This document shows positions 1 to 42,505 of a stretch of 46,108 bases of DNA, one piece after another. Numbering within the stretch: the first letter of the stretch is position 1; each line of letters starts with the position of its first letter. Below the pieces are notes generated by a model. It was not told the origin of the DNA. It saw only the letters and a program-made list of their open reading frames with translations, and searched no databases. This stretch comes from a virus, in IMG/VR virus record IMGVR_UViG_3300005580_000007, positions 1-46,108 of that record. One strand, written 5' to 3'. A program made the position numbers and the translations under genes.

Positions 1-3000
1 TGTTACTGCAACTTGAATTTTTTTCTTTCCGTCGCCCGAAGAAAAGCGCATATAGCTTGCCTTAAGCCCAGTAGGGACTGGTCCAACCTTTAATGGTTTA
101 GATGTATCTCCTGGTGGAGAATAAGGCATTCCAGTTACACCAGCAAATACATTTACTGCTGCAATAAATTTATCTACAGCTGTGTCAAAAACACCTTCCT
201 TGTTGGCAGTTTTATCTGCTAAATCTTTTGCAAGTTTTACGGCTGGGCTCATTGAAACCCTTGGCTTCCCGTCAACTAACTCTGGAAGTCCCGAGGTTCC
301 TTTATAAGGGGCAAGCATTTCTTCGGCGGCTTTGGCTATTTCGCCACCAGCGCTTTTCATTTCTTCAAATATCGCCATTAATATTTTTTGATCTGACCCA
401 CCTATTTTGCCATCAGGATTTCTAGTTACAACATCATTTATTCTATTTCTATAATCTTGAATTGCAGCTAAATTTGCAGTTTTAGTCGCCGCATTTTTAG
501 CAGATGAAGCTACTCCGTCTGATAACAAATCTGCTTTCTTTTGTAGATCTTCTATTTCTTTATTTTTTGCATCAATCTGTTTTTGATATGTATCATTAAT
601 TGATGTTCTTGTTAATTCACGCTGTCTGTCTTCTTGTATTTTTTTAATAGAAAGTTGTGCTTGTGCGGCAGAGGCCATATCCCCCATTGCTAAAGCTTCT
701 TGGTATTTTATTTGTTCATCTCTAAGAGATTTATTAAAATCGGATTCTTGTTGCTGAATGTCGAGCATCTTCAGCTTTAAATCTCTTTCTTTTTCTAATT
801 CTCTAATTACATCTTGAATTGCTTTTATTTTATTATTGTAATATTTTGCATCAAAGTTTGCAGATGCCTCGGAAGCTTTTGTTGCTGCTTCTGCTGCTAC
901 CTTTGCGCTGTTATATAGTTTTGCAAGTGCCGAAAGTGGGTTATTGTTTTCAGTTGAAGAGGTAATGTCGTTTAATGTGTCTTGATACACCGCAAGGTTT
1001 CTTGCAAATTCAACAGCTTGTTTACCTGACATTGCAGCAATGTTTAATTTTTCTGCTAGCCCCGCTGCGTATATAGCGGTTTTAGCATAAATACTTTGTA
1101 GGCTTTCTCCATTTTTAAGAAGAATTGCATATATAATGTTTTGCTCTTTAAGTTTTTCAACTGCCTCATCGTTTAATTCATTAGATGCACCCTTTATTTT
1201 TCCAATTTCATCTAGCGTTTGCTTTAACGCATCTGCTTCTGTCAATTCTGTTTTACCATCGGTGCCACCCTTTGTACCGACAAGTGAGTCCTGGTAGGAA
1301 GATAGAGAATTAATCATTTGCTCAATTCCAGTATTAATTTCTTCAATAAAGCCCTTGCTTGTATTTTTACCCATTTGAGCCAGGGCGGTTGATACTAATT
1401 TTACAGAAGCGGCTGCGGCAGTAGATCTATCAATTATTTCTTTAAATGAAGCTGAGGAAATTGCGGCAACTGCCTGACCAGATTTATTTGATGCAGCTAT
1501 AAGTGAATAGATTGAGTTTGTTGCTTTTTCTACAGACATACCCATAGATACATATTGTGCTTTAAGGGATGTTGCTAATTGATTTACTTTGCTTGAATCT
1601 ATCTTATTAAATGCCGCTAAAGTCTCTGGCATTTCTTTTTTAACACGAGCAGTTTCTTCTCTTAATTGTTTAATTGTTAAAGTTAATCCACGAACTCCTG
1701 TTTTTGTATTTGCGTCATATGATGCGCTTGCTTTTGCACGCTGTAGATCTAACTGGTCATTTATATCTTTTAATCTTGTAGCAAGTGTTTTGTATTTGCC
1801 AGCAAGACCTGCTTCTCCAAGTGTGGCTTCACTTCCTCCAAAAGCTAGTCTGTTTGCTTTTCCAACATCTTCTGCTTTTTTCTTTAGGTCTAATAAATAT
1901 TTTCCAAGAGCAAGTGCGCTTGCAATTAAAGCACCATATCCAGTAAGCTTAATTATTTTTGATAAAGTTAGAGCACCCTTTATTGCAAGTGGGAGCATAG
2001 GAAGAAATTGTCCTAGAATTCCTCCAACCATCATTCCTGGCATTCCTGCAACAGAGCTGCCAATCATAGAGCCTCCAACAGATCCAGCCATTCCTAACAC
2101 TTGGCCCTTCATGCTATAAGGACTCATTGGCGAACTTGGCGTGTCTTGTAAACTTTGTGTTGGAGTTAATCCCATTTGCTCTGCTAGCGGAACGTCTCCT
2201 AATCCATATCCAGTTCTATTTTTAACAATATCTCCGCCTGGTATTATTCCGCCAGAGTTTTTAGGTACAAATACTTCTGGGCCATCTTCTCCAACTAGGT
2301 ATGGCCTATTTGCATTAACTGGACCTCCCTTGGCACGGGCACCATCAACAACTGTCTCTAATTGCAATTTTCCATTTTCTGCATTAACAATTCTAAACTT
2401 GCCGCCAAATATTGCTTCCTGCTCTGACCTTGAGTTATGTCCAGCTACTTTTTGTCCGAAGGGGGCTGAGAATTTTGCTTGTGGAAAAATTTCTGAGGAT
2501 GGGACAACATTTCTATTTTTTACTAATGCTTCTAATAAAATAGCCTTCTCGCCTGCAATGCCTGGAGCAGCATGACCAGGAGCAAATAAACTTGCTATCC
2601 CGCTATCTTTACTCCAAGATGATCGACGCATTATAAATTGTTTTCCAATTAAAGGAGAATAGTCTCCAGTTAATTTTGCCTGAGATATTAAATCTAATAT
2701 ATCTGCTGGAAGCGGATTTGATTTATTGTTCTTTAAATATATTCCTCTGTATAGCTTTCCGCTAAACTTCTTTGATAAAGTTTTTATTGCTTCTGTAGCA
2801 CCTGGAGTACTTAATATTCCATAATTGCCTGCCATATATTGGCGCAATATGTACTTTCCACGATCTTCTAATGTTCCAACTGGGAATCCTGGAACATGCG
2901 CCATACGTGCAAATTGTGGATCGTTATAAGAAATTTCTCTGGTTCTTGCAAACGGGTCTGTTTCAAATGGGTCAGGTTGTGATTTTGATCCAACATGCAT

Positions 3001-6000
3001 TGCTCTACCAATTTGTAATGGACCATGTAATGGGTCTTGGTTTCCTAATGTATATTGCATTCCTTGTGGATAAAATTGTTTTTTAGGTTTCCATTTTGCT
3101 GTTAACCTAGCTAGTGCTGAAGATGGAAGAGATGAAATGCCGTATGAATTTCTATTATAAGAAACGTCACCTCCAGCAATATCTCCACCCATATTTTTTC
3201 TTCTTGCAATTGCACTCAATAGCCCAGGCATTCCATAATATTTACCCAGCATGAGATCTCTTTGTGATGCTGCTTTACGAGAAAGAGGAAGTCTATCTTC
3301 TACAACACCTCTTGACCTAACTCTTTGTCTATTTGTTGCAGAATTATGTGATTCTGAACCTGCTATTCCAGTAAACAAATTTCCATCTCCGTGAATGTCA
3401 AACTCGTTCATTGGGTTTGGGTGCTCTGTTACAAATGCAACTCTTCCCCTTCTAGATTTTCCAGTTTTTGGATCAATATCAATAACTCTAGATATTTCAC
3501 CTATTACGTCATTAAGAATAGATTGGCTAAAGTCCCCACCCCTTGCACGCATAGCCATGATTAATTGAGCTGTTGGAACTACGGCAGACGTACTAAACTT
3601 TCTTCCTACTCCAGTTCCAGTAAACGTTGGATTTTTTGGAGCTAAAATAGATTTTCCAGTTCTTGCTTTTATTAACTCATCTGCTCTTAAAATTTGTTCT
3701 TGTCTTATCTCTTTCCATAAATCTGGATTAATATCTTGCATTGATGGATCATAAGCACGTCTTCTTGCTTCACGCAAATATTTATCGGCCATGTCAATTG
3801 CTTCATCTGGAGACATGTATTTAGAAAGAATTGCAGCATCATGTAAAACTGTTCTAATTCTAAAATCTTCATCATAATCAGAAACATTTAATCTTTTGGC
3901 AATTGCAAATAAATCGTTTTCTTCTATTGTTCCAGATTGTGGTGCAACTGCTCCATAATTATTTTTTTGTCTCATAATGTTTCCGCCAAATGCGTAGCCA
4001 TTATTAGCTGCATTTACTGCTGAATACAGTTCTGGATTTTTATGTATTCCTGGACCAAAAACTGTTTCTTTTGGAGTCAAAAGAGCCTTCATTGATGGGC
4101 CGCTATTACCAAATGTTGTGCTTGCCATATCAACTAAATCTTTATTTTTTGGATTTAGGGAAGCTCTTTGATTTAATACATATCCCCCTAAAGGAATTAC
4201 GCCCATTCTATCATCATGTTTAATTGATGAAGGACCAGAAACAATTGTCTTGTTTGGTCCAAATCCCTCAATGTCTCCGCCCGTGGCAAATCTTTTTGGC
4301 CTTGTTGTTTCTATGCTATAAGAGGCTCCATATGTTTTTACTCCTAGTACCTTAGCAATAGAATTAAATAGATCTCTAGTTCTGCCTGGGCGAGTTAATT
4401 CTTTCATGTTTGCTTTGCCGCTCACTGGGTCAAAGGCTGGTTGATTTACAATTGGCAGCTGTGTTAAATTAACTGTTCTTCCTTGTGCTGTTGCAACTTG
4501 TGTGGCAGCTTGTCCCATCATTGCTTCAATTTGTTGATTTAATGCAATAACTCTTGCTCTTGCCTGATCTACGGTTATTTTTGATGCCTGTAGCTGTGCA
4601 ACAATTTCTGCAGACTCGCTTGCAGCTAGTGTTGTTATTCTAGACATTTGTGGAAGAAGTGCTTGATATGAATCTGATAATGATGTTGTTATTAATCCAG
4701 TTGCTGATACTTCACGCTTTAAAAGCTCAATCTCTGCTTTAGATTGCATTGCAAGTGCGCCAGTCATGGCATGCCACTTTGCTGCTTCTCCTGCAACTAT
4801 TCCAGTTGAGACGTCCTTAATTGCAGATACACCAGAAACCTTTGGAAGGTCCGACCCCATATACATTTGTGGGTTATTGCTAATTTTTTGATTTACCTTA
4901 GTTGCTCCTGGAACAATTCCAAATATTGTCTGTGCATCTTTTTCTGCCTGTGACATTCTTGAAACTGGATTTGGGTGAGAGTAAGCTCTTGTGTCTTTAG
5001 CAGAAACATATTTACTTAATGGATCAACTTCTCTCTGTGCCGTTCCTGTCATTAAAACTTGTCCGCCAACTGTAGAGATTGTTGGAGCAGCACTTACTCC
5101 TGAACTTGCATTTAGTTTTAGTCTTGCAAATTCTTCGTTTAAATTATGTAGTGCAGTAGATAATATTGAAGCTGCTTTAGCATCACTATAAAAAGTTGTT
5201 TCTAATAAATTACCCGCTTTTTGTGCCGCAAGAATTTCTGGAGTTAATAGTCTCCATCCCTCTGCTCCTTTAAATAAAGCTCTAAAGTGTGCAGCTCCCT
5301 TAACTATATATCCTAAGAAGTTGGCAAGGACACCAGTTAGCATAATGATTGGGCCAGTCAGCGCTGTAAATCCAGCAGCAAATGTCAAAAGCTTTTTAAT
5401 TGGGTCTGGAAGTTTATTTGCAAACTGAACTACTTTATCAATTACTCCAATAAAGAATGTTCCAATATTTAAGAACTGTTCTCCTACTCCAGCTAAACTT
5501 GCTTTAAGTGATTCTAGTGCTCTTTTGTACCTTCCAGAGGCTGACTCTGTGATTGCAGTTAATTCTCGGTCAGCAATACCTGCTAGATCCTGTGTACTAG
5601 TTTTCATTAAATCTAATACTTGAAGAGTTTGACTACCTTCTTTGCCTAGGTTTTCAAATAAAGCTGACATTCTTGCAAATTGGAATTTTCCAAATAGCTG
5701 TTCAATTGCTCTTGATTTAGATAGTGGGTCTAGCTTATCTAGTGCGCTTTGTATTTCCACCATCATTCCAGTTAGGTTTCCTGCATTAGAATTAACTATA
5801 TTTTCAAGATTTATTCCGAACCCCTGGAACATTTCTTTAGCAACTTTTGTAGGGTTAATAAGAGATGCTAATGAAGATTTAATTGCATTTGCACCTTCTG
5901 ATGCATTGACTCCGCCCTCTTTCATTGCTGTAAGATAAAGAGCTAGGTCTTGAACAGAGCCTCCTAAGCTTTGAATAACTGGACCAGCTTTTGGAATTGC

Positions 6001-7002
6001 TTCTACTAGGTCTGCTAGAGATGTTGAGGTTTGGTTTTCAACTGCGTTTAAAAAGTTAATCGATTCAGAAAGCTCTGTAGTGTTTTGCTTAAATGCTGTT
6101 TGAATTGCTAGAGTTGCTTTCATTGCTTCTTGTCTATCAACTTCACCTAGTATTGATAGTCTGGTTGTTTCTCTAGTAGATTTAAGAAGTTCATCACCCT
6201 GCTTTCCAGTTGCCGCAATGTCTGCCGCAAGTGCGATAGTTTCTTTATAAGATGCGCCGTATGCAGACGCTAATTCTCTTGCTGTTGCAGAAACTTCTTT
6301 TCTTACTTTAGAAAGCTCTATAGCTGAAGTTTGTGCAACACCACCATAAACTTTTGTTAATCTAACTAGCTGTTCGTCTGCTTCTCTAAATGCTTTTGAT
6401 GCCGCTAGGCCGAAAGCTGCGATTGGAACTGTCAATCCAACTGTTAGCTGTCGTCCAGCCCACTGAGTATTTTTACCCCAGTTAATTAATTGAACTCCGC
6501 CGTCTTGAATTACTTTATTGAATATCTGCATCTCTTGTTTTAAAAGAGCTGTTTTATTTTTTGTAAGATCTAAGCCTCTTGGTATTTGTACGTTAAACTG
6601 CATTAGCCCTTCGGCATTTCTGCCTAATGGTTGTAGTATTGCATTTTGCAACTGGACCTGTTGTCTTGCTAGGTCTCTTATTAATCCGCCAGAAGATCTA
6701 GTATGATCTTGGAATGTTCTGTAGTAATCCTTAAGCTTTAGCTTTCCTTGATCTAAATTTTTACCAAACTTATCTACGTCTGAAGCTAGGCTTACGAAGT
6801 GAGTTGAGAACTGTCCAGTGCTTCTTAATGTAGAAGCAAACCCTTGCTGGATTTTTGCTGCATCCATTGCAAGTGCTTTGTTAGTTGTTGACAGTGCACC
6901 TTTTAATTGAGCTAGCTCTGCTGTGGCCCTTTGCACGTTTGCAATAAGACTTGAGAAATTAGCATTAGCTACTATATTCGTAACTATTGTCTCATTGGCC
7001 AT
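1..7002 (-). CDS. Tail tape measure protein with embedded ADP-ribosyltransferase-like domain (C-terminus cut by window edge)
   Basis: A single reading frame stays open from ATG at 7002 to the left edge, at least 2334 residues. Residues about 1-110 are coiled-coil-like. About 230-420 match the conserved region of TP901-type tape measures (a LYLTAMKEGGV stretch, then GKFQFARM). A hydrophobic stretch lies near 535-570 (GFTALTGPIIMLTGVLANF) and another near 1620-1700. GG/VGEDGPEVFVP-type modules typical of actinophage tape measures occur near 910-960 and 1555-1590. An ART-like domain fills about 1375-1550. The C-terminal part is helical. It sets tail length and is probably ejected ahead of DNA. 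It follows the tail assembly chaperone, the canonical order. The start follows the chaperone stop by about 10 nt, with a weak AGTGGGG ribosome site. Confidence 0.95.
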   Translation of the reverse strand, partial: MANETIVTNIVANANFSSLIANVQRATAELAQLKGALSTTNKALAMDAAKIQQGFASTLRSTGQFSTHFVSLASDVDKFGKNLDQGKLKLKDYYRTFQDHTRSSGGLIRDLARQQVQLQNAILQPLGRNAEGLMQFNVQIPRGLDLTKNKTALLKQEMQIFNKVIQDGGVQLINWGKNTQWAGRQLTVGLTVPIAAFGLAASKAFREADEQLVRLTKVYGGVAQTSAIELSKVRKEVSATARELASAYGASYKETIALAADIAATGKQGDELLKSTRETTRLSILGEVDRQEAMKATLAIQTAFKQNTTELSESINFLNAVENQTSTSLADLVEAIPKAGPVIQSLGGSVQDLALYLTAMKEGGVNASEGANAIKSSLASLINPTKVAKEMFQGFGINLENIVNSNAGNLTGMMVEIQSALDKLDPLSKSRAIEQLFGKFQFARMSALFENLGKEGSQTLQVLDLMKTSTQDLAGIADRELTAITESASGRYKRALESLKASLAGVGEQFLNIGTFFIGVIDKVVQFANKLPDPIKKLLTFAAGFTALTGPIIMLTGVLANFLGYIVKGAAHFRALFKGAEGWRLLTPEILAAQKAGNLLETTFYSDAKAASILSTALHNLNEEFARLKLNASSGVSAAPTISTVGGQVLMTGTAQREVDPLSKYVSAKDTRAYSHPNPVSRMSQAEKDAQTIFGIVPGATKVNQKISNNPQMYMGSDLPKVSGVSAIKDVSTGIVAGEAAKWHAMTGALAMQSKAEIELLKREVSATGLITTSLSDSYQALLPQMSRITTLAASESAEIVAQLQASKITVDQARARVIALNQQIEAMMGQAATQVATAQGRTVNLTQLPIVNQPAFDPVSGKANMKELTRPGRTRDLFNSIAKVLGVKTYGASYSIETTRPKRFATGGDIEGFGPNKTIVSGPSSIKHDDRMGVIPLGGYVLNQRASLNPKNKDLVDMASTTFGNSGPSMKALLTPKETVFGPGIHKNPELYSAVNAANNGYAFGGNIMRQKNNYGAVAPQSGTIEENDLFAIAKRLNVSDYDEDFRIRTVLHDAAILSKYMSPDEAIDMADKYLREARRRAYDPSMQDINPDLWKEIRQEQILRADELIKARTGKSILAPKNPTFTGTGVGRKFSTSAVVPTAQLIMAMRARGGDFSQSILNDVIGEISRVIDIDPKTGKSRRGRVAFVTEHPNPMNEFDIHGDGNLFTGIAGSESHNSATNRQRVRSRGVVEDRLPLSRKAASQRDLMLGKYYGMPGLLSAIARRKNMGGDIAGGDVSYNRNSYGISSLPSSALARLTAKWKPKKQFYPQGMQYTLGNQDPLHGPLQIGRAMHVGSKSQPDPFETDPFARTREISYNDPQFARMAHVPGFPVGTLEDRGKYILRQYMAGNYGILSTPGATEAIKTLSKKFSGKLYRGIYLKNNKSNPLPADILDLISQAKLTGDYSPLIGKQFIMRRSSWSKDSGIASLFAPGHAAPGIAGEKAILLEALVKNRNVVPSSEIFPQAKFSAPFGQKVAGHNSRSEQEAIFGGKFRIVNAENGKLQLETVVDGARAKGGPVNANRPYLVGEDGPEVFVPKNSGGIIPGGDIVKNRTGYGLGDVPLAEQMGLTPTQSLQDTPSSPMSPYSMKGQVLGMAGSVGGSMIGSSVAGMPGMMVGGILGQFLPMLPLAIKGALTLSKIIKLTGYGALIASALALGKYLLDLKKKAEDVGKANRLAFGGSEATLGEAGLAGKYKTLATRLKDINDQLDLQRAKASASYDANTKTGVRGLTLTIKQLREETARVKKEMPETLAAFNKIDSSKVNQLATSLKAQYVSMGMSVEKATNSIYSLIAASNKSGQAVAAISSASFKEIIDRSTAAAASVKLVSTALAQMGKNTSKGFIEEINTGIEQMINSLSSYQDSLVGTKGGTDGKTELTEADALKQTLDEIGKIKGASNELNDEAVEKLKEQNIIYAILLKNGESLQSIYAKTAIYAAGLAEKLNIAAMSGKQAVEFARNLAVYQDTLNDITSSTENNNPLSALAKLYNSAKVAAEAATKASEASANFDAKYYNNKIKAIQDVIRELEKERDLKLKMLDIQQQESDFNKSLRDEQIKYQEALAMGDMASAAQAQLSIKKIQEDRQRELTRTSINDTYQKQIDAKNKEIEDLQKKADLLSDGVASSAKNAATKTANLAAIQDYRNRINDVVTRNPDGKIGGSDQKILMAIFEEMKSAGGEIAKAAEEMLAPYKGTSGLPELVDGKPRVSMSPAVKLAKDLADKTANKEGVFDTAVDKFIAAVNVFAGVTGMPYSPPGDTSKPLKVGPVPTGLKASYMRFSSGDGKKKIQVAVT
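2355..2880 (-). other. ADP-ribosyltransferase-like (R-S-E) domain inside the tape measure
   Basis: Tape measure residues about 1375-1550 carry the three landmarks of R-S-E mono-ADP-ribosyltransferases in the right order. They are LYRG with R1419, the SSWS core at 1461-1464 followed by an IASLFA helix, and the ExE motif EQE at 1527-1529. The ExE is followed by AIFGGKFRIVNAENGKLQLE, which resembles the usual end of the fold (bulky residue, FRV strand, acidic strand). The STS motif is SSWS here, a variant seen in some phage MuF-type ARTs. Family membership is inferred from the motifs; activity and target are unknown. Confidence 0.72.
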
Positions 7003-7777: not shown

Positions 7778-8467
7778 TTATGCTGTAACTGATAAAACAC
7801 GGTCAATAATCTTACCGTATTCTTGTCCAGCGTATGCTGAATCTCCTGAAGGAAGAAGACGGAAAGTTACTGGGAATGTTGTTGCTGCGTTACGAGCAAG
7901 TGAGAATTGTGACTGCTGTACTGAAAGTACGCGACGTGCATAATATACACGCTCCGCAGAAACTACATTAGTTGCTGAAGTAGGAGCTTGTCCTACCGCA
8001 ATTAGTTGACGCTCTGTTGGAGCAACTCCTAATGCACCAGCTTCAAGACCGAGGGTCTGTGTTGCTGTGTTTCCTGATCCAGCTGAAGTTAATGTGGACG
8101 CACCCTGACCAAATACTGCTAGAGTGTTCTCTAGTGTACCTTCAGCCATTTCTGTTGCGATCATTACTTCCATTGACTCCTTGAACAGCTTTGCTGTATC
8201 TAGAAGCTGATCTACTGTTACTGAACCGTATGATGGGTTATATGTAATCTGAAGACCGTTATTTGTAAAACCTACGTTGCGGAATTTTAAACCGTCTGTA
8301 GCATTTAAAGTATTTGCATACGGTGTAGCTAGTACGGGTGTAACTCCTGATGCTGCACCTGGTTCCATGTTTTCTACGTATGTACCTTGTGTTGAATCTT
8401 TTGCTGAAAGAAATAGTGGTGAAGCACCAACTAAAATATTTTTAGCATTACCAATGTTCTGTGGCAT
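7778..8467 (-). CDS. Major tail (tube) protein
   Basis: 229 residues preceded by a strong AGGAGG site. The small, beta-rich, Ala/Thr/Val-rich sequence lies directly before the tail chaperone pair. The central part (TLENTLAVFGQGAST) and the C-terminal part (ERVYYARRVLSVQQSQF) look like actinophage major tail proteins. It should form the tail tube by hexamer stacking. A hairpin follows the gene, as expected for a highly expressed structural gene. Assignment rests on position and sequence character. Confidence 0.85.
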   Translation of the reverse strand: MPQNIGNAKNILVGASPLFLSAKDSTQGTYVENMEPGAASGVTPVLATPYANTLNATDGLKFRNVGFTNNGLQITYNPSYGSVTVDQLLDTAKLFKESMEVMIATEMAEGTLENTLAVFGQGASTLTSAGSGNTATQTLGLEAGALGVAPTERQLIAVGQAPTSATNVVSAERVYYARRVLSVQQSQFSLARNAATTFPVTFRLLPSGDSAYAGQEYGKIIDRVLSVTA

Positions 8468-33054: not shown

Positions 33055-34989
33055 CTATGCAGATATATCTACAAGCTCGCAGTTTCCATCTGAGCTACAT
33101 GCTAATGTTGCACTTGGTGAAGTTCCATCTTCTGTTTCATAAAAAGATAGATCTTCCCAGCGTATGTTCTTTGGCATTTTTGCAACTAAAGACTCGTATT
33201 CTTCTTTTGAAACTTCTTGATATGGGGCTTGCTTGTAAGAGTGGTCTGAGTGAGGTAGGAATGATATGCCAGACACCTCATCAAAATTCTTATAGACCCA
33301 GGCTCCAACTTCCATCCATTCTTCTTCTTTTACTGAAACTGTAATAGATGGCTTATGCTCGCACCATGCACGTTGATATACTAGCCATATATTTAAATGC
33401 TCAATTGCTGATAAATCATTTCTTACTATTGCGCCGTCTGGTGCTTTTACTGGAAATGAAAAAACATACGTATCATTTGGCTTCATAACATCATCTTCAA
33501 CTGGTATTCCAACTTCTTTTAAAAATGTAGAAATTGGATCACCTTTTGAACCACGAACTGTTCTAATGTAATATGGGGAGTGCCATGGGTGCATGCCAGA
33601 AGACACTCCTACCAATTGAGAAACGGTTCCAGAAGGCTTTACGCAAGTAATAGCGGCGGACTCTGGAATACCAATTTGATCAGCCTCTTCTTTATTTGCT
33701 TCTCTTGCTTTTTCACGAAGAGACATTAAAAATGCTTCTAGGGATATAATATCTTCTTTTCCAGACATAAACTTATGTCCGAATTGTCCAGTTAATGAAA
33801 CACCTAATAATCTTTCTTCTTCTGTGTTGTCTTTCCAAATTTTACGCAAGTATTTAAAATCTGTTAAAGTAGACTGCCATGTACCCAGTATGGTTGCAAG
33901 CTTTACTTTTCTTTCAATATCTTTTTTTGTATCATTTTCACGTATTACAACTTCTGATAGATTACAGAATTGATAAGGACGCAAAATGATCTCTGAACAT
34001 GGATTAGTTCCGTAATGTATGTCTGAATCTCGTCTGCCAAATTTTGCTGCCTGCGCTTGAGCTGCCGCAACATTATAAATGCCACGCTCTCCAGATTTTG
34101 AATCGTAAAGAGATTTCCATTCTGCAATAAATTGTTCCATTTGTGGTTTTCTAGAATATGCAACGGAATTGTTTGATAAGGCACGCTGTGGGCTCTGTTC
34201 CCACCAATTACCTGATTTTGCTTGTGCCATTTCAATATCATTAATATTAGACAATGATATCATTGCTGATCTTCGGACTCCTCCAACAACTACAACTTCG
34301 CCAATCTTGCACATTATGTCATGACACTCTATTGGCTTAAGATTTCTTCCTGCTGCACTCTTAAATTTTGCAATAGTAAAATCAAAAAGATTTATGAGTG
34401 GTTGTGGACCAGATGACCTTCCTCCCATGGTTTTAAGCCTTGCGCCTGAGGGTCTAACTTTTGAAACATCAATTGCTGGTATATGTCCAGTCCAAAGCAA
34501 TGCAAGAAGTTCACGGTACGCCTTTGCCCAGCCTTGTTTTGAATCTTCAACAACAATAACAGTATCTGATTTTTCAAGTTTTTCTGGTACGGCTGGAAGT
34601 TTATTAATATACTTATATTCAACTGAAAAACCAACACCAGTTCCACACATTAAGACATACATTGTTTCATCAAAGCTGCGTGGCGAGTCAACTGGAAGGA
34701 AAGCGCAGTTGTATCCAGCAACGTTGTCTCTTTCTAAAGCTGCTCCAGAAGTCATTACAGATCTCATAGATGGCATTACATTTCGTTCAAAAACAAACTC
34801 TTTTAATTCCGCAACAAGCTTTTCATTTGGAATGTAATTATAATTTTCTTTTAAATGATTAGTCATAAAGCTAAAATATCTATCTACTGTTTCTCCCCAA
34901 GTTTCTCTACGACCTTCTGCTTCTACCCATTTTGCATATCTAGATAAAGCAATAAAGTTTTCATAGGGATTTGCAATAGTTTGTAACAT
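33055..34989 (-). CDS. nrdJ: Adenosylcobalamin-dependent (class II) ribonucleotide reductase, monomeric type
   Basis: 644 residues. Reduces ribonucleotides to deoxyribonucleotides using a B12-derived radical. Visible: C95 in NCAFLPVD, CGTGVGFSVE, GGVRRSAMISL, then NPCSEI with C331 and a second Cys at C342, the same 11-residue spacing as C408/C419 of the Lactobacillus leichmannii enzyme. The C-terminal redox pair is C631/C637. About 95 residues shorter than that enzyme, so an allosteric insertion may be missing. Read after the glycosyltransferase. Gives the phage DNA precursors under aerobic or anaerobic conditions, provided cobalamin is available. Confidence 0.92.
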   Translation of the reverse strand: MLQTIANPYENFIALSRYAKWVEAEGRRETWGETVDRYFSFMTNHLKENYNYIPNEKLVAELKEFVFERNVMPSMRSVMTSGAALERDNVAGYNCAFLPVDSPRSFDETMYVLMCGTGVGFSVEYKYINKLPAVPEKLEKSDTVIVVEDSKQGWAKAYRELLALLWTGHIPAIDVSKVRPSGARLKTMGGRSSGPQPLINLFDFTIAKFKSAAGRNLKPIECHDIMCKIGEVVVVGGVRRSAMISLSNINDIEMAQAKSGNWWEQSPQRALSNNSVAYSRKPQMEQFIAEWKSLYDSKSGERGIYNVAAAQAQAAKFGRRDSDIHYGTNPCSEIILRPYQFCNLSEVVIRENDTKKDIERKVKLATILGTWQSTLTDFKYLRKIWKDNTEEERLLGVSLTGQFGHKFMSGKEDIISLEAFLMSLREKAREANKEEADQIGIPESAAITCVKPSGTVSQLVGVSSGMHPWHSPYYIRTVRGSKGDPISTFLKEVGIPVEDDVMKPNDTYVFSFPVKAPDGAIVRNDLSAIEHLNIWLVYQRAWCEHKPSITVSVKEEEWMEVGAWVYKNFDEVSGISFLPHSDHSYKQAPYQEVSKEEYESLVAKMPKNIRWEDLSFYETEDGTSPSATLACSSDGNCELVDISA

Positions 34990-35058
34990 TTGTTATACGA
35001 CCTTTTCTCCGCCTTGCGGTTTAAATTTTATATGAAATCCTAGTGTATCAAACTTTTT

Positions 35059-36063
35059 TTAAAGGGGGAAGGGATTAGAAAATTTTTTAAAAATTGGTTC
35101 AAAGGCATTAGCAGTCAACTGATTCCATCTATACTCTTCATGTATCTTAGTTGCTTGAGAGTAGTAATAACCAGAGTAAGCATTAAAGTTTAAAGACACT
35201 TCTCTCATAAGCTCAAGTAGATGTTGACGGTTTGGCTCAAACACTTTGCCTTCATGTGGAAATGGCCAGGGGGAATCTATTAGTTCAGATTTTAATTTTA
35301 ATGGACCTAAATATTTTTTATAATGTGCCCAAGAAGATGTACAAATTGTTGGCATTCCTGTTGCTAGTGCTTGAAGAGGAATAAATCCAAATCCTTCTCC
35401 ATAACTAGGATAAACTAAAACATCGTGATTGTGATAAAGATTAATTAGTTCTTCTTCATTTAAATTATCAGTTACAACATTTACATTGCTATACATATTT
35501 TGAGGAAGCCCTATTATATTTTTATCCATATAGTTATTATAGACTCTAGTGGTATTTGCTCCGTAAGCCTTTATAGTTAAAGAATATTTAGGATCATTTC
35601 CAAACAATGATAGGAATGCATCTAATACCATCTGCCCAGCTTTTCTTGGAGCGGGCTCTCCAATATGCAAAAATTTAATTACACCGTCATCAATTCTTTT
35701 TTTAGGAGACCAAGCAGCAGAAACACCATGTGGAAAAACTTTAATATCAGAATATCCATTTGATTCAAAAACATTTGCACACCAGTCTGAGGTTGTCCAT
35801 ATTTCATCTACAAGATCTAAATTTGATTTCCATGAAGAAGGAATTACAGTTGACTCCCATGGGGTATATGATATTTGATATTGTTTTCTATGCATTTTAA
35901 AATGATCTGGTTGAGAAAAATTTAGCTGTACTGGTGCTTTTGAATTTTGAAAAGGAACTGTATGTCCTAGGTTAGTTAATGATTTAACTATGTTTAATCC
36001 AGCATAACCGTAGCCATTATTATTTTTCATATTAATAGTTGGCGTCGAAAACGATATTTGCAT
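35059..36063 (-). CDS. Glycosyltransferase, GT4-like (GT-B fold)
   Basis: 334 residues. N-terminal acceptor domain with GYGYAGLNIVKSL near 17, then FPHGV at 110-114. Donor domain: IKFLHIGEPAPRKAGQMVLD near 129, VLVYPSYGEGFGFIPLQALA with ATGMPTI following. In the family EX7E motif the first Glu is E223, but the second is Q231. Start from ATG 36063 with AGGAAGGAT before it. Could glycosylate tail proteins, phage DNA or host polysaccharide; sequence does not decide. Confidence 0.85.
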   Translation of the reverse strand: MQISFSTPTINMKNNNGYGYAGLNIVKSLTNLGHTVPFQNSKAPVQLNFSQPDHFKMHRKQYQISYTPWESTVIPSSWKSNLDLVDEIWTTSDWCANVFESNGYSDIKVFPHGVSAAWSPKKRIDDGVIKFLHIGEPAPRKAGQMVLDAFLSLFGNDPKYSLTIKAYGANTTRVYNNYMDKNIIGLPQNMYSNVNVVTDNLNEEELINLYHNHDVLVYPSYGEGFGFIPLQALATGMPTICTSSWAHYKKYLGPLKLKSELIDSPWPFPHEGKVFEPNRQHLLELMREVSLNFNAYSGYYYSQATKIHEEYRWNQLTANAFEPIFKKFSNPFPL

Positions 36064-41080: not shown

Positions 41081-42505
41081 TTATCCTCTCAAAATTTTAA
41101 AGTTATATTCCTTTTCCCACTTTTCAATATCCAAAGCATCGTTTAATAAAGGTTGACCTTTTATATTTAAACTTGTGTTTAATAATATTGGAACGCCAGT
41201 AATAGTATACCATTTTTCTAAAAGAGAATATAGCCCCTTATGTTGATTTTTATTAACTGTTTGTACTCTGGACGTCCCGTCCTTATGTACAACAGATGGA
41301 ATTTTTTCTGGCTGTAAACACTTAACCGTATATTGCATATATGGACTTTCAAAATTCATATCGAACCATTTGGAGGCATGCTCTTCCATGACTACTGGAG
41401 CAAATGGTCTAAATAGCTCTCTTTGCTTAATTGCATTAACTTTATCTTTAATAGATGGATCTCTTGGGTCTGCTAATATAGATCTATTACCTAAAGCCCT
41501 TGGGCCATATTCCGCTCTTCCTGTTGCTACCGCCGCAATTCCATCTTTTGACAATTTGTTAATAATTGCTTTTACTGGATACTCTCCGCCTAGATCATGG
41601 CCCAGGTATGGGCTTTTCCAATTTATATGGCTTTCGTATAGTGCACAAGCTGCACCCAAAGATGATCCAGCATCTCCTGGGTTGGGCATAATCCACACGC
41701 TATCAAAAATATTCCAGAGCATTGTATTTGCAGAAGAATTAAGAGCACAACCTCCCATAAAGACAAGATTTTTTTTTCCAGTAGTTGAGTATGCCAAGTG
41801 CATAAATTCGTTTAGCCTTTGTTCATATACAAACTGTACTGCTGCAGCTATATCAAACTTGTTTTGTTCTGTTACTTCTATATCCCAATCATATATGCCT
41901 TTATGAAAATTATATTTTTGTTTATCATACTTTGGAAAATATAAATCTACTTTTTTATAATATTTTTTCCAATCTCCATAAGCTGCCATACCCATCATAA
42001 TGTATTCTTCTTGATTTGGTTTTAATCCAATTAATTGAGTAAAAGCTGAATAAAATAATCCAAAACTTACTGGGTAATTTTGTTTATATTTTAATTTAAT
42101 TTTATTTTTTTCTCCGACCCAGATTGTTGAAGTGTTCCATTCCCCAATTGCATCAAGAACAACTACAGCAGCGTCATCATATTTACTGGTGTAGTATCCC
42201 GCCGAAGCATGCGAATAGTGATGTCCAAAATACTTTACTGGTAGATCCATTGGTATATTTGGAAGCCAATCAGATGCACCACCTTTTAACAACAGTCTAC
42301 TTTTTTTAAGTAATGGTTTTTCATAGTACGCTATGTGTGTTGGTGTTCCATAGTTTAGTGCATCTAGATATATGTCTCTGTTGTTGTACCAATCATTTTT
42401 TTTCTTACTGTATCTTTCTGCGTGCCCCGCAAAAAGGATCTCTCCATCTTTTATTAGTGAAATCGAAGCGTCGTGAGATGTTTCGTTAATTCCTAAAATT
42501 ATCAT
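41081..42505 (-). CDS. Carbamoyltransferase (NodU/CmcH/TobZ family)
   Basis: 474 residues. Two domains: Kae1-like half with ILGINETSHDASISLIKDGE at 3-22, FGHHYSHASAGYYTS, VVVLDAIGEWNTSTIW and EEYIMMGMAAYGDW; C-terminal YrdC-like half with AEYGPRALGNRSILADPRDP near 345. Transfers carbamoyl from carbamoyl phosphate (via carbamoyl-AMP) to a sugar hydroxyl in this family. Related to host O-carbamoylation and to phage-borne copies. Coupled to the SGNH hydrolase by a 4-nt overlap. Sugar target unknown. Confidence 0.88.
   Translation of the reverse strand: MIILGINETSHDASISLIKDGEILFAGHAERYSKKKNDWYNNRDIYLDALNYGTPTHIAYYEKPLLKKSRLLLKGGASDWLPNIPMDLPVKYFGHHYSHASAGYYTSKYDDAAVVVLDAIGEWNTSTIWVGEKNKIKLKYKQNYPVSFGLFYSAFTQLIGLKPNQEEYIMMGMAAYGDWKKYYKKVDLYFPKYDKQKYNFHKGIYDWDIEVTEQNKFDIAAAVQFVYEQRLNEFMHLAYSTTGKKNLVFMGGCALNSSANTMLWNIFDSVWIMPNPGDAGSSLGAACALYESHINWKSPYLGHDLGGEYPVKAIINKLSKDGIAAVATGRAEYGPRALGNRSILADPRDPSIKDKVNAIKQRELFRPFAPVVMEEHASKWFDMNFESPYMQYTVKCLQPEKIPSVVHKDGTSRVQTVNKNQHKGLYSLLEKWYTITGVPILLNTSLNIKGQPLLNDALDIEKWEKEYNFKILRG

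Follow-up and report, generated by a model that had tools for sequence, protein, structure and literature searches.

We have found that the tape measure protein (TMP) gene of the virus record IMGVR_UViG_3300005580_000007 (46,108 bases, the whole stretch analysed, called the window below) encodes an internal domain that is predicted to adopt the ADP-ribosyltransferase (ART) fold. As shown by computation, TMPs that are otherwise close relatives have gained, lost and exchanged this domain. We consider it probable that this ART, which is of the R-S-E type with an ExE motif and under selection, is an interchangeable cargo cassette of the TMP, that is to say a virion enzyme that enters the host with the DNA and modifies host proteins. 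The in-frame position, the predicted fold, the kept catalytic residues, the purifying selection and the exchange were all computed. The features on which the argument turns are as follows.

7002..1, minus strand: TMP gene, 2334 codons (open frame; PhageMin_Tail; PHROG tape measure)
4243..7002, minus strand: conserved scaffold part, residues 1-920 (53-91% identity in matched relatives, 38-40% in L084/L085)
2347..2877, minus strand: ART domain, residues 1376-1552 (AlphaFold2 predicted local distance difference test, pLDDT, 80.7; fold matches in PDB and BFVD)
2746..2748, minus strand: R1419, first-strand arginine of LYRG (invariant, 44/44)
2617..2619, minus strand: S1462 of S-W-[ST], counterpart of the STS motif (invariant, 44/44)
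2416..2424, minus strand: E1527-x-E1529, ExE motif (E1527 at 2424-2422, E1529 at 2418-2416; invariant, 44/44)

The TMP frame starts with an ATG at 7002 and is open to the first base of the window (2334 amino acids), its 3' end lying beyond the window edge. The product matches PhageMin_Tail of Pfam at residues 239-438 (E 3e-27) and PHROG tape measure families with E down to 5e-122, and by profile match and by the place of its gene after the major tail and chaperone-like genes it is identified as a tape measure protein.

Position and motifs of the ART domain

An ART-like domain inside the TMP had been claimed in a sequence-only reading of this DNA, at 2355-2880 (residues 1375-1549). This is confirmed: the structural matches cover about model residues 37-213, which correspond to TMP residues 1376-1552, and R1419, S1462 and E1529 were found exactly at the residues claimed, with the motifs LYRG, SSWS and EQE in order. 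The R-S-E order is common to Vis, CDTa, ExoS, HopU1 and Certhrax. A loose pattern (hydrophobic-aromatic-RG, S-[STW]-S, E-x-E), devised after the sequence had been seen, occurs once in the window TMP and in 0/1000 shuffles of the same protein. A slightly looser version is present in 46 of the 47 related TMP frames with the domain versus none of the 54 without it. At the position of the STS motif the first serine is invariant, the middle residue is W and the third is S or T. Conservation applies to the serine of S-W-[ST] and not to the S that opens SSWS, which varies (RASWS in L068, PRSWT in L083-L085).

Predicted fold and profile searches

The AlphaFold2 prediction from a 44-sequence alignment reached a pLDDT of 80.7 and a predicted template modelling score of 0.74, the five models ranging from 77.6 to 80.7 in pLDDT. 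From a 6-sequence alignment the pLDDT was 62.5, with one of the five models standing out. In the model, R lies on strand 72-83 (R80), S on strand 116-125, and the ExE (E188-x-E190) opens strand 190-203. This succession, with R first, S next and ExE opening a late strand, is that of ARTs. When the model was compared with the PDB using Foldseek, rows 1-15 were all ARTs (Vis, HopU1, CDTa, ExoS, Certhrax, ART2.2), with 12-18% identity over the alignments, and row 16 was unrelated (probability 0.13). ARTs likewise headed the PDB matches of the 6-sequence model, the fourth rank being taken by 6dre, the toxin of an ART toxin/immunity pair. With VIA-align, the best 50 matches were all ARTs, with Z from 9.6 down to 7.8 over 121-149 aligned residues. 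The 29 BFVD rows with E <= 0.001 comprised seven proteins named ADP-ribosyl- or VIP2-, four portal, minor capsid or head morphogenesis proteins, and 18 that were uncharacterised or unnamed. Structure prediction had been named beforehand as a point at which the idea could fail; it returned an ART fold, and residues 1376-1552 of the TMP are thus predicted to form an R-S-E ART.

The domain is far less visible to sequence profiles. PF03496 (ADPrib_exo_Tox) matches 3 of the 44 family members, with a best E of 0.05, and scans with Pfam, PHROG and NCBIfam gave no assignment for the window's own ART domain sequence. No MuF domain was found, PhageMin_Tail being the only Pfam domain of the carrier TMP. 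The sole match of a profile search of PDB chain sequences, a beta-galactosidase (E 1.6-1.7), was taken as chance. Among named phages, tblastn matched 97 records; 38 of the 40 rows among the matches listed start at query residue 249 or later, in the Gly-Gly linker, and the remaining two, from Serratia phage BUCT805 and Roseobacter phage CRP-406, showed no ART when their sequences were read. Four more members of the ART family were searched against the named phages: three had no match, and the single match of the fourth, a Dhakavirus protein (E 0.5), was by eye without R-S-E. The TMPs of Streptomyces phages Angela and StarPlatinum gave no convincing ART match (3.9 bits for Angela). Profile comparison with a Gordonia phage GMA2 protein of 243 amino acids, equated by length with the BFVD hit A0A0K0N738, aligned the last strand only (probability 1.5).

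Conservation and selection

Four scans of viral contigs yielded overlapping sets of 6, 8, 22 and 53 loci with ART homologues. The alignment used here (A5) holds 44 distinct sequences, the window and 43 relatives that are 32-82% identical to it; nine identical sequences among the 53 loci were excluded, as was L079, whose contig ends before the E motif. Its invariant columns include R1419, G1420, S1462, W1463, E1527 and E1529 (44/44). All 53 loci retain R and S, and 52/53 retain E-x-E, the exception being cut by the contig end. Loss of R, S or E in homologous TMPs, the other outcome that would have counted against an ART, was therefore not seen where the domain is present (44/44). In 49 of the 53 loci the N-terminal part of the TMP lies in the same frame as the ART; L079 and L080 carry that part upstream in a different frame, and L054 and L083 are truncated at the end of their contigs. 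For all 45 pairs of ten domain sequences, the ratio of nonsynonymous to synonymous substitution rates (dN/dS) was 0.13-0.33. These values indicate purifying selection on the ART domain, which argues for a function.

Exchange of the domain between TMPs

A scan with the scaffold (A6) retained 80 TMP loci of at least 514 relatives. Among the complete related TMPs, 14/52 carry the ART and 38/52 do not, so the domain is not essential, and since many homologous TMPs lack the whole of it, it is better described as a dispensable cassette than as an eroding domain. A scaffold tree was built by a quick method from the window and 73 of the 101 unique frames, namely those with the N-terminal part from its start and at least 1700 amino acids. 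On this tree (74 sequences, 43 with ART), the presence of the ART requires at least 7 changes, 4 of them forced by starred branches.

The clearest case is given by L098 and L100, which are neighbours in the tree and 95% identical over 955 residues. At the DNA level they are 93-96% identical as far as the cargo region and again over the final 4.8 kb, and 86% identical immediately behind the cargo. L100 reads ..NMGGMVQ-GYIRGGGIP [ART] GGIIPG-YQDGGAVGAF.. where L098 reads ..NMGGMVQ-EYQDGGAVGAF..; Gly-Gly linkers thus flank a site that holds the ART segment in one phage and lacks it in the other. A second variable region of the TMP, slot A (see below), also differs between the two, and the third unaligned stretch falls inside the TMP gene. 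Outside this gene there is one difference, a frame of 200 codons that lies next to the capsid gene in L100 and is absent from L098. By eye this frame (L100 4173-4775, plus strand) is homing-endonuclease-like. The idea of an ART-linked immunity gene was dropped, this frame being the sole difference outside the TMP gene. Behind the capsid gene of the window there is no comparable frame of at least 80 codons.

Exchange is also seen in the identities. Between the window and L042 the scaffold is 91% identical and the ART 69%; with L103 the figures are 79% and 82%. In trees of 18 chosen relatives and the window, the ART data reject keeping together the window's scaffold clade, as taken from the 74-sequence tree (approximately unbiased test, p-AU 9.7e-6). 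Judged from these sequences, the histories of ART and scaffold conflict. In L084 and L085, whose TMP is more distant, the ART is found close to the C-terminal end (residues 1801-2040 and 1877-2116, respectively).

A proposed role at the start of infection

In the virion the tail tube is filled by the TMP, which leaves together with the DNA. From the computed properties of the domain we infer its packaging, entry, activity and host target as follows. The ART would be packed with the TMP in the tail, would leave with it ahead of or together with the DNA, and would be carried into the cytoplasm beside a membrane-active segment. There it would fold and use host nicotinamide adenine dinucleotide (NAD) for the mono-ADP-ribosylation of one or more host proteins. 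ExE marks the arginine-specific type among ARTs, and arginine is thus the likely acceptor. The modification could help the take-over of the cell or block a defence during the first minutes of infection. RNA polymerase or translation factors as targets are guesses by analogy with T4, whose Alt is a virion-borne ART active at the start of infection. Such a route would agree with the position of the lambda TMP next to inner-membrane proteins during injection (PMC13190303) and with the glycine zippers of TMPs and of the type VI secretion system effector Tde1, which have been linked to membrane passage (PMC10240207).

Several observations weigh against this reading. Only 3 of the 183 Foldseek matches in the PDB have E <= 0.001, the ART rows, whose alignments are long and gapped, have low query TM-scores (0.34-0.43), and the best VIA-align Z of 9.6 is slightly above the 7-8 that the tool states as a common best-Z background. 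PF03496 gives no match in the window TMP itself (gathering score not reached), the profile search of PDB chain sequences found no ART, and the middle residue of the STS-type motif is W, not T. The 38 of 52 complete relatives without an ART manage without it. A globular domain of 20 kDa must also pass a narrow tail tube, for which it would have to be narrow, unfolded or carried at the tip. If TMPs are oligomers, several ART copies would share the tube. It has been proposed that a TMP-like effector domain may adapt to the lumen prior to its ejection (PMC13277306). Lastly, ART activity, presence in the virion and a role in infection are here inferred.

Could the fold be an artefact? The weak sequence-profile signal is what a chance resemblance would give, but the 6-row and 44-row models, although built from overlapping alignments, both rank ARTs first in the PDB and BFVD agrees, which makes chance highly improbable. 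It is unlikely, though less so, that an ART fold is present and serves structurally without any transfer, as a tail-tip plug, a spacer or for ligand binding. Its embedding in a structural protein and the reading S-W-[ST] of the STS motif would suit such a use; the invariance of R, S and both E of ExE in 44/44 sequences down to 32% identity, and the existence of related TMPs without the domain, would not. With all catalytic residues invariant in a dispensable cassette, inactivity is hard to explain.

An active enzyme could also have another place of work. Action outside the cytoplasm, on the envelope during penetration, is suggested by TMPs of relatives that carry CHAP and LysM domains (L107 and L058, above Pfam cut-offs). 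However, ARTs need NAD, a cytoplasmic compound, and we regard this as very unlikely. Somewhat more credible, yet still improbable, is an ART that works late in the producing cell or on phage proteins (its own TMP, the tail, the capsid) and is not passed on to the next host: the infected cell that makes the TMP has ample NAD, so that an active ART could work before assembly, and the L100/L098 pair shows no obvious immunity gene travelling with a toxin. But a late enzyme needs no place inside a TMP, and exchange within a virion cargo region close to a membrane segment is more in line with delivery. Delivery into the next host with the DNA is the reading that we retain.

Relation to known systems

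ARTs on virion proteins are known from MuF-ART (VIP2-like) fusions of Microbacterium phage clusters EH/EJ and of Stenotrophomonas phage AXL1 (gp16), which are likewise present or absent among close relatives (PMC7302621, PMC9206674); AXL1 gp16 was detected in virions by mass spectrometry (PMC9206674). There the carrier is a head protein and the ART is C-terminal, whereas here it is a tail TMP with an internal ART and no MuF domain. T4 Alt is a virion-borne ART that acts at the start of infection (PMC9206674), but it is a free head-packaged protein, unlike the TMP-embedded ART, and the two are likened by description, not by sequence. The TMP-related contractile-injection-system effectors Sle1 and Tme of Streptomyces also combine a TMP-like scaffold with an exchangeable functional domain (PMC13277306). 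They belong to bacterial contractile particles without a capsid, in contrast to the window cluster with its portal, protease and major capsid genes, and the string 'adp-ribos' has 0 occurrences in that paper. TMPs with muramidase or peptidase domains, as in the staphylococcal phage phiIPLA35, likewise hold an enzyme inside the TMP (PMC6145125), but these domains act on the cell wall while an ART needs cytoplasmic NAD. Vis, CDTa, ExoS, HopU1, Certhrax and other R-S-E ARTs have the same fold as that predicted for the TMP domain; the ARTs of known structure are not phage structural proteins but bacterial or animal proteins that are secreted or injected.

The excerpts of PMC7824862, PMC6145125 and PMC12487901 describe no ART in a TMP, nor was such a description found in the open-access literature, judged by titles, the opening of abstracts and the excerpts, the subscription literature being mostly outside this scope. 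TMP mosaicism has been suspected from sequence, with no recent genuine case confirmed in the part of PMC10684548 consulted. The enzyme class and virion-borne ARTs on head proteins are thus known; the TMP as carrier, with evidence for cassette exchange, is new.

An ART in a TMP would give the tail a cytoplasmic effector. As it works only where NAD is reached, it offers a test of where the TMP goes during injection, and the natural pair with and without the domain makes its effect separable from the rest of the phage. TMPs, which are mostly annotated by length only, may hide further enzyme cargo missed by profile searches. We tentatively extend the idea, as possible but somewhat short of probable, to the TMPs of this lineage as polymorphic effector carriers: a conserved scaffold, a cargo region bounded by Gly-Gly linkers in which the ART and other modules are swapped, then a membrane segment. 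The swapped modules can be likened to the tips of polymorphic toxins. If true, the tail, and not the head alone, would be a general syringe for phage take-over enzymes.

Other modules and genome setting

Further features of the TMP and its surroundings are the following.

5302..5391, minus strand: hydrophobic stretch, residues 538-567 (charge-free, hydropathy scan)
3193..3945, minus strand: cargo slot A, variable module, residues about 1020-1270 (seven clusters among relatives' segments; no Pfam match in the window's own)
3007..3042, minus strand: NxDPxHGxLxIG motif before the ART, residues 1321-1332 (44/47 ART-bearing frames)
2233..2328, minus strand: Gly-Gly linker behind the ART, residues 1559-1590 (similar in Vibrio, Serratia, Klebsiella and Roseobacter phage TMPs)
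1981..2106, minus strand: charge-free GxxxG-rich segment, residues 1633-1674, putative membrane-active glycine zipper (GxxxG-richest TMP region)
7778..8467, minus strand: immunoglobulin (Ig)-domain protein, probable major tail protein by synteny (phrog_2175, E 3e-28; order as in Streptomyces phage Angela)

Slot A segments were clustered without their first 110 residues, as shared linkers otherwise joined all 77 of them; eight modules were scanned against Pfam, none with a convincing match. The strongly conserved NxDPxHGxLxIG motif precedes ARTs of mid-protein position and occurs in 1/54 frames without an ART match, a frame that ends just behind the motif. Two of the named-phage TMPs bearing the Gly-Gly linker were read and showed no ART. 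The GxxxG-rich segment comes shortly after the ART.

In the C-terminal parts of TMPs of 3.2-4.2 thousand residues, CHAP (L107, L058) and LysM (L107, L049, L077, L058) are found above Pfam cut-offs. L091, the window's closest long relative, matches the same short CHAP/LysM patterns, and the missing end of the window TMP gene may carry such domains. Other stretches were noticed by eye. A kinase-like DAHGGN...DFG lies near the TMP end in L107 (residues 3180-3480) and L049 (3213-3513); Pfam, PHROG and PDB sequence searches gave that of L107 no support. Stretches of the H-Y type resembling poly(ADP-ribose) polymerases (FHGS...GMGFYGTSS) are seen in L107 (residue 3568), L049 (3601), L111 (2816/3204) and L121 (3422), and a second R-S-E-like stretch (YRGL...SIT...HEGL) in L049 (2996), with no profile support for those scanned. 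HExxH zinc-protease-like motifs occur in the C-terminal parts of L072 (residue 2613), L058, L077 and L078, and L072 has a weak Peptidase_M10 match (E 0.12).

In the direction of transcription, the genes for portal, maturation protease, major capsid protein, head-tail adaptor and Ig-domain protein precede the TMP gene, an order that matches Streptomyces phages Angela and StarPlatinum. The N-terminal part of the TMP matched 361 named records, and since the best 20 are all Streptomyces phage TMPs (32-36% identity), an actinobacterial host is likely. Bacterial genomes searched with the ART domain and with the TMP scaffold held no relative of either, so no host could be read from prophages. Elsewhere on the minus strand, 33055-36063 and 41081-42505 encode a ribonucleotide reductase (E 3e-189), a glycosyltransferase and a Nol-like carbamoyltransferase.
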